A stretch of DNA of 64,000 nt from Actinomycetota bacterium. Lineage in GTDB: Bacteria; Actinomycetota; Actinomycetes; Propionibacteriales; Nocardioidaceae. Under the pieces are notes generated by a model. It searched no databases, was not told where the DNA came from, and saw only the letters and a program-made list of their open reading frames with translations. Location: the NCBI GenBank assembly GCA_009701885.1, contig WLJH01000007.1:62001-126000 (forward strand). Reading direction: 5' to 3'. Below, piece after piece: positions 34,466 through 39,572 of the stretch. Made by a program: the position numbers and the translations under genes. How positions within the stretch are numbered: position 1 is the first letter of the stretch; each line of letters opens with the position of its first letter.

Positions 34466-34734
34466 GGCGGACCTCCGGTGTCGACGAGCGTTCGACAGGG
34501 TAGGTCTCGTGCGTGGCGACCGTCACGGCCGTCTCAGGCGCCCCACTGCGCGTCGGTGACCAGACCGTCCCAGGACTCGGGCGGGCGGCAGGTGAGGCTG
34601 GGTCGCGGGTCGCGAACCAGCGTGACGTCCCGACCCGGCCCGCGGGTCGTCCCGGGCTACCTCTCGCGAACGGTCGTCCACACCTGCGCGACGACGGGGC
34701 CCGACCCGTGCCCGGGGCGCGCGAGGGTCGGGAG

Positions 34735-35579
34735 ATGGACGAGCTGGCGCGGGTGCTGCGGGACCAGGACGGGGTGGTGGCCCGCAGGCAGCTGCTCGCT
34801 CTGCCGGGAACCGACGCCACGGCCGTGAACCGGATGCTGCGCCGTCGCGAGCTGGTCGAGGTGCACCGCGGCGTCTACGTCGACCACACAGGTCCGCCGT
34901 CCTGGCAGCAGCTGGCGTGGGCCGCGGTGCTCTGGGCATGGCCGGCCGCGTTGGCGGGGGAGTCGGCGTGGCGCGCGTTCGAGGGGCCGGGGCGCCGCCG
35001 CCGCGACACCGGCCGGATCCACGTGGAGGTGGAGCGGGACCGCAGGCTGGTGCCGCCGCCCGGGATCGTCGTCCGCCGGCGAGCCGGTTCCGGTGACCAC
35101 GTGCTCTGGAACCTGGGACCGCCGCGCGTCCGACTCGAGGAGGCGGTCCTCGACGTCGCCCTGGCCGCTCCCGACGAGCTGGGGCTGGTCGCCGCGCTGG
35201 CGGACGCCGCCGGCTCCCGGCGTACGACGGCAGCGCGTCTGGCCGAGGCGCTGGCCGCCCGGACCCGGGTACCCCGCCGCGGGTTGCTCATGGCGGCGCT
35301 TGAGGACGTGGCGGCTGGGAGCTGCTCGGTGCTGGAGCGGGAGTACCTGCGTCGGGTCGAGCGCGCCCACGGGTTGCCGCTCGACCACACGCTGCTCGCG
35401 GACCGGGACCGCGACCTGGAGCGGGACCTGCTCGTGGCGGGCCGCGGAGGCCGGTCGGTGCGCTCGGGTACGGCCAGGTGCTGGCGAGAGCCTGCACCAC
35501 CGCGCGCGGGGTCGGTGCGGTGCTGCAGGTCGCCGGGTGGGAAGGGGCGGTCCGCAGCTGCGGGGCCTGCAGTGACTGA
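34735..35579 (+). pseudogene. Decayed AbiEi-type / DUF559 protein (internal deletion plus frameshift)
   Basis: The N-terminal ~220 residues are intact: ELARVLRDQDGVVARRQLLA and VEVHRGVYVDHTG are the AbiEi winged-helix start, followed by the usual middle region. After ERAHGLP the expected DUF559 endonuclease core (a strand ending in VVELDGR) is missing, and the sequence rejoins at DRDRDLERDLLVA. One base is then lost near 35465: the frame switches from RSVR to LGYGQVLARACTTARGVGAV, the normal C-terminus, ending at TGA 35577. The original frame has no stop for more than 1.8 kb. Both lesions point to a pseudogene, unless the single-base loss is a sequencing error. Confidence 0.75.
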
Positions 35580-35662
35580 GGCGCTCTGGCCACGCGCCGC
35601 GCGCGCAGCCGCGAGGCGGGGAACGGGTCCCGCGGGAGCGATCCAGTCCGTGCGGTCGGGCT

Positions 35663-35710
35663 CTGTGTGGCGTTTCCGTTCAAGCAGGGTTGAACCGGGA
35701 CGCCACACAG
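35663..35710. terminator. Inverted repeat CTGTGTGGCGT/ACGCCACACAG
   Basis: Perfect 11-bp arms 26 bases apart, with an inner TTCAA/TTGAA pair. It lies between the convergent decayed AbiEi gene and etfD. Confidence 0.65.
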
Positions 35711-35749
35711 TCGTTCTCGCAGGCGGTCCGGGAGGGACCCGCACGAACG

Positions 35750-35783
35750 ACGGAGCCCCGGACCTCGCGGTCCGGGGCTCCGT
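35750..35783. terminator. Strong terminator hairpin downstream of etfD
   Basis: ACGGAGCCCCGGACC and GGTCCGGGGCTCCGT form a perfect 15-bp stem around TCGC, 25 bases beyond the etfD stop. There is no T-run, as usual in high-GC actinomycetes. Confidence 0.85.
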
Positions 35784-35807
35784 GGCGTGCTGCTGTGCCG
35801 GTGGGAC

Positions 35808-38800
35808 TCAGATGTCGAAGAGGGACTCCACCGACTCGATCTCGACGTCCGTGCGGGGCTGGTGGGCCTCGCCGCTGGAGACCGGCTTCGCCTGCTCCGG
35901 GGCCTTCTCCTCGGCAGCCGGCTTCTCGGTGGGCTCCGCCGGGGCAGGCTCCTCCTCGGTCGCCTGCTCCTCGGCGGCTGCCTCGGCCTCGGCGGGTGCC
36001 TCAGTGGTGGCCGCCTCGTCCACGGGCTCGACCTCCGCGGCCGGCTCGGACCCCTCGGACCCAGCGTCCGTGCCGTCCTCGGCGACGTTCTCGGCCGAGA
36101 CGTCGACCGGAGCCGCGGCGCCTGCCGGGGCAGGGGTCGTGCTGGACGGAGCGGTCGCCTTCGGGGGCGCCGGGACGTTCTCCGGGGCCGCGATGTCGAA
36201 GAGCGAGCCACCCGCGTTGAGGTCCACCGCCGGAGCGGCAGGCTCCGTCTCGGCGGCCGGCTCGGCCTTCGCCTCGGTGGCCGCGGGCTCCGGTGCCTTC
36301 TCCTCCGCCGGGGCGGGGGTCTCGGCCTCGGGCTCCGGGGCCTTCTCGTCGGCAGGAGCCGGGGTCTCGGCCTGGGCCGGCTCCGCGGCCTCCTTAGCGG
36401 GGGCGGGCTCGGCCTTCGCAGCCGGAGCGGGCTCCTCGGCGACGATGTCGAAGAGGGAGCCACCGCCGGACAGGTCGACGTCCTGGGCGGGGGCCGGGTC
36501 GGCCCCGGCCGCGGGAGCCGCTGCCTTCGCCGCCGACTCGGACGGCTCCTCGGCAGCAGGCTCGGCCTTCGCCTCGACCGGAGCAGCCTCGGCCCGGGAG
36601 GCCTCCTGCGCGGGGGCCTCCTTCGCCGGGGCGGGCTCCTCGGCCTGCAGGTCGAAGAGCGACCCGCCCGAGCCGAGGTCCGAGGACGGCTCCGGGTCGG
36701 CCTGCTTCGCGGCCGGCTCGGGCTCGGCCTTCGCCTCGGACTTCTCGGTGGCCGGCTCGGCCTTGGCCTCGGCCGGCTCCTCGCCCGCGTCGGAGTCGCC
36801 GCCCAGGTCGAAGAGCGAGCCGCCCGAGGAGGGGGCCTCCTTCGGAGCAGCCTTCGCGGCCTCGGCCTCCTCGGCCGGAGCCTTGTCGGGGGAGGCGGTG
36901 GCCGAGGTCGCCGTGGTGCCCGACTCGTCGTCGAACATGGAGGAGGCGTCGTCGAAGAGCGAGGAGCCGCCGGAGGCCTTGGCCGCCGGACCGGCGTCCT
37001 GGGTCTCGGTGACGGTGTCCTCGGTGATGGTCACGTCGCCGGCCTCGGGCTCGGCCTTGGTGGCCACGTCGGTGCCACCTGAACCGCTGCCGCCGGAGCC
37101 CGACCCCTCGGAGTCGTCGCCGGAAGCCGCGGCCTTCTTGGCGGCCGGGGCCGCCGTACCCGCACCGGCTGCAGCGCCGGCGCCGGGCAGCAGCTTGGTC
37201 GCCTGCTCGCCCTTGACCGAGGCCAGCAGCATCTGCGCGACGTCGAGGATCTCGACCTCCTCGCGCGCCTCGCCCTTGGACTGCTTCATGGTCAGGCCGT
37301 CGGAGAGCATCACGCGGCAGAAGGGACAACCCACGGCGATCTGGTCGGCACCGGTGCCGACCGCCTCGTTCGTGCGGTTCATGTTGATCCGCTCGCCGTA
37401 GTTCTCCTCCATCCACATGCGCGCACCGCCGGCGCCGCAGCAGAAGGACTTCTCGCTGTGGCGCTCCATCTCGACGTACTCCGCGCCGGGCAGGACCTGG
37501 AGCAGCTCGCGCGGGGGCGAGTAGACGCCGTTGTGGCGACCGATGTAGCAGGGGTCGTGGTAGGTGATCGAGCGCTTGTGCGCGCCGGGGCCGGCCGAGA
37601 CCGGGGTCAGCTTGCCCTCGCGCACCAGCCGGTTGAGCAGCTGGGTGTGGTGCACGACCTCGAGCTCGACGCCGAACTCCTTGTACTCGTTCTTGAGCGT
37701 GTTGAAGCAGTGCGCACAGGTCGAGACGACCTTCTTGACGCGGTACTCCTTGAAGTTCTCGACGTTCTGCTGGGCCAGGCCCTGGAACACGAACTCGTTG
37801 CCGGCGCGGCGGGCCGGGTCACCGGTGCAGGTCTCGCCGTTGCCCAGGACGCCGAAGGAGACGCCGGCCATGTCGAGCAGCTCGGCCACGGCGCGGGTGG
37901 TCTTCTTGGCGCGGTCCTCGTAGGCGCCGGCGCAGCCGACCCAGAACAGCCAGTCCACCTCGTCGAGGTTCGAGATGTCCTCACCGACGACCTTGACCTC
38001 GAACGGCAGGTCCTTGGCCCAGTCCATCCGGGCCGAGGACGACATGTTCCACGGGTTGCCCTTGTTCTCCAGGCCCTTGAAGAGGCCGTTGAGCTCGGCG
38101 GGGAAGTTCGACTCGACCAGGACCTGGTGACGACGCATGTCCATGATGTGGTCGACGTGCTCGATGTCGACGGGGCACTGCTGGACGCAGGCGCCGCAGG
38201 AGGTGCAGTTCCACAGCACGTCGGGGTCGATGACCGCGGCGCCGTTGCTGGGGTTGTAGAACCACTCGCCGTCCTCGAGGCCGTCCATCCGACCGCCGGT
38301 CTCGCCGACCAGCGGCTTCTCGACCTCGGTCGCCAGGGCGGTGTCGCCGGCGAGCATCGCCTCGCGGTGCGCCTCGTCGGCCCGCAGGTAGGGGGCCTTG
38401 GCGTAGGCGTGGTCGCGCATCGCGGTGATGAGCAGCTTGGGCGACAGCGGCTTGTCGGTGTTCCACGCGGGGCACTGCGACTGGCAGCGACCGCACTCGG
38501 TGCAGGTGGAGAAGTCGAGGATGCCCTTCCAGGAGAAGTCCTCAAGGGTGCCGACGCCGAGCGTGGAGTCCTCGTCGAGGTCGTCGATGTCGTCGAGCGT
38601 GACCGGCTTGCCGTTGTTCATGAGCGGCTTCATGCCGCCCAGCGCGGTGGTGGCGCCGTCGGTGTCGCGGCCGACCGACTCACGCTTGAAGAAGATGTTG
38701 AACCAGGCGGTGAAGCGGTGCCAGGCGATGCCCATGGTCAGGTTCGAGGAGATGACCATCAGCCAGACCATCGCCAGGACGACCTTGATCATCGCGATGA

Positions 38801-39464
38801 CGACGATGGTGTTCTCGAGCGCCGACTCGTTGCCCTCGACCCCGGCGGGGAACAGGAAGTCGCCGACGTACCCGGAGATCGGGAAGTGGAAGCGGGTGAA
38901 GTCCTCGGGGTGGTCGCTGTCGATCTGGCCGAGGTTGTACTCCGCGCCGCGGATGAACAGGATCGCGGCGCTCTCGACGAGCACGAACGCCTCGACGAAG
39001 TAGGCCTGCCACTGCGTGGAGCCGTAGAACCGGCTCTTGCGGCCCTGGCTTCGCGGGTGGTTGAGCTGGCGCACGACGATCAGCGCGATGATGCCGAGCG
39101 TGCCCAGGAGGCCCAGCCCCTCGCTGACCCACTCGAAGAGGAAGAAGTGGCCCAGGATCGGCAGCGCGAAGTCGGGCTTGAAGAGCTGGACGTAGCCGGT
39201 GGCGACCGCCGAGGAGAGGACGATGAACGCGGCGTAGACGAACCAGTGCATCGCGCCCACGAAGCCCCACTGGAGCATCCGCGTGTGGAGGAGCGACTCC
39301 TTGAGCAGCGTGACGGTGCGCTTGCCCGGGTTGTCGGTGCGCGACGCCGGCTGCCCGACCCGGACCGTCCCGAGGATCGCCCGCACCGCCCGCGTCGTCA
39401 TGGCGACGGCGACGGCGGTGAAGGCCAGGGACACCACGATGGCGATGATCTGGATTGCTGGCAT
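35808..39464 (-). CDS. etfD: EtfD-type membrane (Fe-S)-binding oxidoreductase with SLFD-repeat C-terminal tail
   Basis: 1218 residues. Residues 1-270 are membrane-embedded (five or six spans, nitrate-reductase-gamma-like). Two [4Fe-4S] ferredoxin motifs, CTECGRCQSQCP and CTSCGACVQQCP, follow. Two CCG domains (WVGCAGAYED..CAHCFN and HDPCYIGRH..FCCGAGGARMW) complete a heterodisulfide-reductase-like core ending near residue 760. This matches mycobacterial EtfD (Rv0338c), which passes electrons from electron-transfer flavoprotein to the quinone pool during beta-oxidation. The last ~460 residues are Ala/Glu/Pro-rich and disordered, with seven S[LM]FD motifs. ATG 39464 is preferred over the track GTG 39491. 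CTACCGGTAG lies upstream. Confidence 0.92.
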   Translation of the reverse strand: MPAIQIIAIVVSLAFTAVAVAMTTRAVRAILGTVRVGQPASRTDNPGKRTVTLLKESLLHTRMLQWGFVGAMHWFVYAAFIVLSSAVATGYVQLFKPDFALPILGHFFLFEWVSEGLGLLGTLGIIALIVVRQLNHPRSQGRKSRFYGSTQWQAYFVEAFVLVESAAILFIRGAEYNLGQIDSDHPEDFTRFHFPISGYVGDFLFPAGVEGNESALENTIVVIAMIKVVLAMVWLMVISSNLTMGIAWHRFTAWFNIFFKRESVGRDTDGATTALGGMKPLMNNGKPVTLDDIDDLDEDSTLGVGTLEDFSWKGILDFSTCTECGRCQSQCPAWNTDKPLSPKLLITAMRDHAYAKAPYLRADEAHREAMLAGDTALATEVEKPLVGETGGRMDGLEDGEWFYNPSNGAAVIDPDVLWNCTSCGACVQQCPVDIEHVDHIMDMRRHQVLVESNFPAELNGLFKGLENKGNPWNMSSSARMDWAKDLPFEVKVVGEDISNLDEVDWLFWVGCAGAYEDRAKKTTRAVAELLDMAGVSFGVLGNGETCTGDPARRAGNEFVFQGLAQQNVENFKEYRVKKVVSTCAHCFNTLKNEYKEFGVELEVVHHTQLLNRLVREGKLTPVSAGPGAHKRSITYHDPCYIGRHNGVYSPPRELLQVLPGAEYVEMERHSEKSFCCGAGGARMWMEENYGERINMNRTNEAVGTGADQIAVGCPFCRVMLSDGLTMKQSKGEAREEVEILDVAQMLLASVKGEQATKLLPGAGAAAGAGTAAPAAKKAAASGDDSEGSGSGGSGSGGTDVATKAEPEAGDVTITEDTVTETQDAGPAAKASGGSSLFDDASSMFDDESGTTATSATASPDKAPAEEAEAAKAAPKEAPSSGGSLFDLGGDSDAGEEPAEAKAEPATEKSEAKAEPEPAAKQADPEPSSDLGSGGSLFDLQAEEPAPAKEAPAQEASRAEAAPVEAKAEPAAEEPSESAAKAAAPAAGADPAPAQDVDLSGGGSLFDIVAEEPAPAAKAEPAPAKEAAEPAQAETPAPADEKAPEPEAETPAPAEEKAPEPAATEAKAEPAAETEPAAPAVDLNAGGSLFDIAAPENVPAPPKATAPSSTTPAPAGAAAPVDVSAENVAEDGTDAGSEGSEPAAEVEPVDEAATTEAPAEAEAAAEEQATEEEPAPAEPTEKPAAEEKAPEQAKPVSSGEAHQPRTDVEIESVESLFDI

Positions 39465-39572
39465 TGCTGGGATCTCTCCTCGTCTTCCCACGCCCGCTGG
39501 GGGGCTGGCGCTCGCTGGAGCCTAGGGGCGCGGGGGTGCAGCCGTCAGGCCCGTCCGGGGGTGAGGATGATC

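Follow-up and report, generated by a model that had tools for sequence, protein, structure and literature searches.

The window, by which we mean the whole stretch of 64,000 nucleotides analysed, encodes a membrane-bound EtfD-type oxidoreductase whose last third is an acidic, disordered chain interrupted by copies of one short motif. This raises the question of what such a tail might do and with which partner.

The etfD gene, its product and the conservation of the tail

The gene, the parts of its product and the motifs of the tail are located as follows:

35808..39491, minus strand: etfD, membrane Fe-S oxidoreductase, open reading frame of 1227 aa from an upstream GTG
37200..39464, minus strand: folded core with TM helices, 4Fe-4S and two CCG domains (Pfam, alignment to 9ojn, AF2 model of the relative L010)
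35811..37190, minus strand: disordered acidic tail, about residues 768-1227, ~460 residues (composition, AF2 model of L010)
36951..36962, minus strand: motif 1, SLFD, residues 844-847, followed by D
36930..36941, minus strand: motif 2, SMFD, residues 851-854, followed by D
36807..36818, minus strand: motif 3, SLFD, residues 892-895, followed by L
36651..36662, minus strand: motif 4, SLFD, residues 944-947, followed by L
36447..36458, minus strand: motif 5, SLFD, residues 1012-1015, followed by I
36195..36206, minus strand: motif 6, SLFD, residues 1096-1099, followed by I
35814..35825, minus strand: motif 7, SLFD, residues 1223-1226, terminal, followed by I and the stop codon (compared with the endings of 43 tails)

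Met10 (MPAIQII) is as likely a start as the upstream GTG. Judged by two CCG domains, 4Fe-4S and core homology, the protein is a predicted EtfD-type membrane ETF:menaquinone oxidoreductase: Pfam matched CCG in two stretches (E 4.1e-37) as well as Fer4, and residues 13-787 align to the solved EtfD of M. smegmatis (PDB 9ojn) with an E value of 4.5e-200. The AF2 model of the 1001-residue relative L010 shows the long N-terminal helices of EtfD-type transmembrane segments and is folded until about residue 740; its tail has pLDDT values mostly below 50 and lacks secondary structure. Because the closest genes belong to named Nocardioides species, the host is most likely a Nocardioides. A long open frame runs antisense to the tail (34513-37401, plus strand), joined upstream, as judged by eye, to an AbiEi/DUF559-like reading; it is probably a side effect of GC-rich codon usage.

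The tail has a net charge of -76 over 467 residues, and all seven of its aromatic residues lie inside the motifs. Seven S[LM]FD motifs were observed, against a mean of 0.002 in composition-preserving shuffles, and the last belongs to a conserved end block, GEAHQPRTDVEI..SLFDI. Pattern searches of the own genome revealed no second protein with an SLFD cluster. A previous sequence-only reading had described seven such motifs in a disordered acidic tail of about 460 residues, with the last at the chain end, and its positions were borne out; it had erred in calling them evenly spaced, as the gaps grow along the window tail (7, 41, 52, 68, 84 and 127 residues).

For comparison, we assembled a set of 43 distinct tails, each containing LFD two or more times; they come from Nocardioidaceae and two Streptomyces. 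SLFD motifs occurred in 16/16 sampled genomes of the window's genus, and 324 of the 356 tail phenylalanines in the 43 proteins fell inside motifs. Nearly all tails terminate in [SG]LFD[LIY]; the ending is LFD plus one residue in 42/43 and DDLWDD in the remaining one (G060). Across 140 pairwise alignments, aligned identity was 95% within motifs vs. 52% in the filler. Comparing motif and filler in relatives was the check by which the idea of multivalent docking sites had been proposed to stand or fall, and the conserved motifs in drifting filler support it. The tail is a real and strongly conserved feature, and its role is probably one of docking.

Some relatives carry other tails. Six Nocardioidaceae proteins (L023-L025, L101, L102 and L106) have no internal SLFD and a constant hydrophobic tail end, DRLF/DTLF or GSL. 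In Aeromicrobium (L091, L092 and L147) the EtfD tails are very acidic and have repeats of a different kind, such as SEKEKAAWANVGPVNTDLTP in L092 and L147; a DANPSG block is conserved, but there is no short terminal motif copy.

Covariation with EtfB and the probable partner of the tail

The own genome contains one EtfBA pair. We took EtfB and EtfA from 59 genomes, of which 23 encode an SLFD tail and 36 do not, and found that EtfB residue 157 is Gln in 23/23 of the former and 0/36 of the latter, which makes it the sole perfect separator among ~580 EtfB/EtfA columns. It remained the only one after 748 columns of the EtfD core had been added (total ~1330). EtfB residues 153, 155, 156, 160, 164, 173 and 175 were also among the strongest discriminating columns, all of which were chosen after looking at the data, and with only the closest relatives compared, 7 of the 12 strongest of the ~1330 columns fell in EtfB 151-178. 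EtfA 64-66 and EtfD core positions 357-381 and 559 discriminate the two groups too, and by a score over 25-residue windows EtfB was no outlier vs. EtfA or the EtfD core, so that only single columns stand out. On a tree built without the EtfB signature segment, SLFD and Gln157 changed three times each, and the independent contrasts agreed in 3/3 cases, which are too few for significance (sign test, p 0.25).

A natural switch was found in the sister species G053 and G060, the latter of which has changed its tail from SLFD to DDLF/DLWDD. Their EtfB proteins differ at 35 positions, 11 of them clustered within the 25 residues from position 154 onward (permutation p 0.005), a count exceeding that of SLFD/SLFD pairs with more total EtfB differences. 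The EtfD core helix, which is also discriminating, is unchanged between the two species.

The AF2 model of EtfB (mean pLDDT 83) contains strands at 153-157, 160-166 and 171-177. The discriminating positions 153, 155, 157, 160, 164, 173 and 175 alternate along these three predicted strands, so that they are expected on the same face of a three-stranded sheet. The net charge of this face is +0.83 in SLFD genomes vs. -0.92 in the others, without a similar shift on the opposite face, as would be expected if the face met an acidic peptide. The EtfB of Phycicoccus, whose tails carry DPWD, has no clear signature, and the EtfB face of Dermacoccus, with a tailless EtfD, is nearly the same as that of a dgc-operon EtfB of Streptomyces (see below). 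An acidic residue occupies position 164 in mycobacteria, but likewise in tailless Amycolatopsis. An overall charge flip of EtfB and EtfA between lineages with acidic and basic tails was not seen, EtfB being acidic in all of them. A Kribbella genome with three EtfB proteins (L268, G085) has one that clusters within Nocardioides and no longer carries Gln157; the EtfD of this genome is tailless.

On the EtfD core tree, the SLFD-tailed proteins of Streptomyces ureilyticus and S. blattellae are nested within the Nocardioides clade. They are encoded in the following operon:

L145:489-7994 and L146:515-7688: DAO/GCV_T dehydrogenase - EtfB - EtfA - SLFD-tailed EtfD

This EtfD is apparently of the Nocardioides type and gained by transfer. 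Its gene lies directly downstream of those for EtfB, EtfA and the dimethylglycine-dehydrogenase-type DAO+GCV_T protein, with a glycine-betaine transporter or a Rieske oxygenase gene nearby, and by its gene content the operon is a betaine/dimethylglycine catabolism locus. The position of the gene beside those for ETF and a DAO/GCV_T protein suggests that the tail goes with ETF and not with acyl-CoA dehydrogenases. The EtfB of the operon shares only about 30% identity with the main EtfB and lacks Gln157 in spite of its SLFD-tailed neighbour, which argues against taking Gln157 as a strict rule. A second, diverged EtfB of this kind was found in 12/41 sampled Nocardioides (L304-L311); one genome sampled for both (G129) has a second ETF but one EtfD, which would therefore serve two ETFs.

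With modest confidence, we lean towards reading the tail as a multivalent docking line for ETF, which it would contact via EtfB. Among the partners listed by the sequence-only reading, ETF is favoured by the EtfB covariation, the single ETF pair, the operon linkage in Streptomyces and the co-immunoprecipitation of EtfB with M. tuberculosis EtfD (PMC8593149). EtfD, seated in the membrane, would extend its disordered acidic tail into the cytoplasm, presenting 5-11 short SLFD sites with one at the very tip. Each site would weakly bind the same ETF surface, putatively one face of the three-stranded beta-meander that spans residues 153-177 of EtfB; in SLFD lineages this face is poorer in acidic residues and bears Gln157. 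Such docking would hold ETF close to EtfD and may thereby let electrons reach the Fe-S clusters faster, with no need for a tight complex. This idea can be tested directly: it specifies the motif and the EtfB face, including Gln157, and two sister species offer a natural motif switch.

That the tail instead docks another partner, such as an acyl-CoA dehydrogenase, a scaffold or a respiratory complex, and turns EtfD into the hub proposed by the sequence-only reading, we regard as unlikely. The association with EtfB would then reflect shared ancestry, which the mere three independent contrasts and the missing signature in the dgc EtfB of Streptomyces would allow. However, a hub for acyl-CoA dehydrogenases found no support, since SLFD was retained beside a dimethylglycine-dehydrogenase-like gene in place of an ACAD, and one uniform motif per protein would be more in keeping with a receptor present in single copy than with the numerous FadE paralogues. 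Distinctly improbable is a binding of the motifs to EtfD itself, either as intramolecular docking to the core or as tail-to-core links clustering EtfD in the membrane. Core columns 559, 562 and 398-401 do track SLFD, and core and tail moved jointly into Streptomyces, where EtfB is different. Yet the core residues 559 and 562 are unaltered in G060 despite its altered motif, and the AF2 model of L010 shows no rise in confidence and no structure at any motif, a weak argument given the shallow alignment.

Layout of the motifs and recurrence in other lineages

The spacing of the motifs follows a rule. Among 41 SLFD tails with at least five motifs, which are related and hence not 41 independent cases, the gaps increase towards the C-terminus in 40 (median Spearman 0.98), and the widening persists in 35/38 if the last gap is dropped. 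The mean rho of 0.87 compares with a maximum of 0.24 across 500 shuffles of the gaps within tails. The residue after SLFD shifts in a fixed order from polar to Leu/Ile along the tail, being hydrophobic in 19%, 60%, 92% and 100% of the copies from the first to the last quarter, and without exception at the last copy. The widening could reflect chain physics, with sites evenly spread in space, or the age of the copies; the fitted gap exponents (0.95 for SLFD vs. 0.51 for KRPG) favour neither.

Similar layouts with other motifs were found elsewhere. The tails of Mycobacteriaceae carry a GLG[IM]..K[RA]PG repeat with a copy at or near the C-terminus, and gaps widen in 10/10 tails with enough copies; a de novo score for terminal copies overlooks several of these tails owing to the variant sequence of their final copy. 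Four tails of the Phycicoccus clade contain 7-11 DPWD each and all terminate in DPWD, with a widening that is weak overall and weak or absent in two of the four. The Mobilicoccus tail repeats a SAADALAMM-like segment at widening gaps of 55, 84, 110 and 179. Repeats are also present in the tails of Kineosphaera and Enemella, with neither a terminal copy nor widening gaps shown for Kineosphaera. EtfD is tailless in Kribbella, Micromonospora, most Streptomyces and several other families, and the EtfD core tree requires four changes for SLFD. We tentatively consider it possible that EtfD tails of Actinomycetota have repeatedly evolved a widening motif ladder with a C-terminal rung, whose lineage-specific motif co-evolves with one EtfB face. 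If so, a rapidly changing lexicon would serve a bacterial respiratory enzyme as a means of fishing for its electron carrier.

The codons of the motifs bear on the origin of the copies. The motif Ser is encoded by TCG in 84% of the copies vs. 38% elsewhere, suggesting that the copies probably derive from a common unit by duplication. The tail might accordingly be a low-complexity by-product, a duplicated module without binding function whose order records the age of the copies; young proximal copies could account for the short proximal gaps, and some genera do without a tail. We judge this very unlikely, as the motif Leu codons are divided between CTC and CTG, which together with the difference in identity between motif and filler indicates selection on the protein, the peptide being what is kept. 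The fixed terminal copy and the unrelated motifs in similar layout elsewhere also argue against it. Scarcely credible is that the motifs mimic the recognition loop of ETF-beta and recruit acyl-CoA dehydrogenases directly: SLFDI loosely resembles the Leu-x-x-Ile of the human loop, but the own EtfB loop reads RYPSFKGIM instead of S-L-x-x-I, and the tail is retained alongside a non-ACAD dehydrogenase. The DNA clamp-binding pentapeptide QL[SD]LF was likewise rejected, as its first position requires Gln and the context in the tail is mostly GGSLFD.

Comparison with known systems

The closest described case is the mycobacterial EtfD (Rv0338c, IspQ; MSMEG_0690; PDB 9ojn), with a core homologous across 775 residues. 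According to a recent paper (PMC13083937, EMBO J 2026), the M. smegmatis protein has an invisible C-terminal region of ~30 kDa with conserved interspersed repeats, and the mycobacterial tail is described there as disordered with interspersed repeats, citing Szekely 2020. The same paper reports that AlphaFold 3 places a region of the mycobacterial tail in contact with ETF and that ETF was not recovered together with purified M. smegmatis EtfD. EtfD is a candidate tuberculosis drug target, and no ETF-EtfD complex is known to have been solved. For mycobacteria, therefore, an encounter of the tail with ETF has already been proposed, and the earlier statement that no role had been described is partly outdated; it stands in so far as the mycobacterial motif is a different one. 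Both tails are disordered after CCG2 and have interspersed repeats, a terminal copy and widening gaps, but the mycobacterial one carries GLGI/M..KRPGAKK in a near-neutral to basic chain and that of the window SLFD[LI] in a strongly acidic one. The GLG[IM]..KRPG repeat that marks the mycobacterial type is absent from the window tail, whose motif is SLFD. Literature searches gave no match for an SLFD motif and, besides PMC13083937, no paper on a linear motif of EtfD. The consulted passages of that paper mention neither the SLFD lexicon nor the layout rule and its return with other motifs, nor the covariation with EtfB.

FadF of B. subtilis and DgcB of P. aeruginosa are EtfD homologues likewise linked to ETF but with short or absent tails (PMC13083937). 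The Streptomyces dgc-like locus offers a DgcB-like context, yet with an SLFD-tailed EtfD of the Nocardioides type.

Should the tail indeed dock ETF, it would offer one of the rare examples of a bacterial respiratory chain using multivalent linear motifs for docking, and the rule of their spacing would recur, with different motifs, in separate lineages. In its working, without any claim of homology, it would resemble EPYC1 and CsoS2, which bind Rubisco, and the endocytic adaptors with DPW, NPF or clathrin-box motifs, in all of which a disordered chain captures a folded partner by means of short motifs that recur along it. It would differ from these systems in having its chain anchored to a membrane enzyme of respiration.
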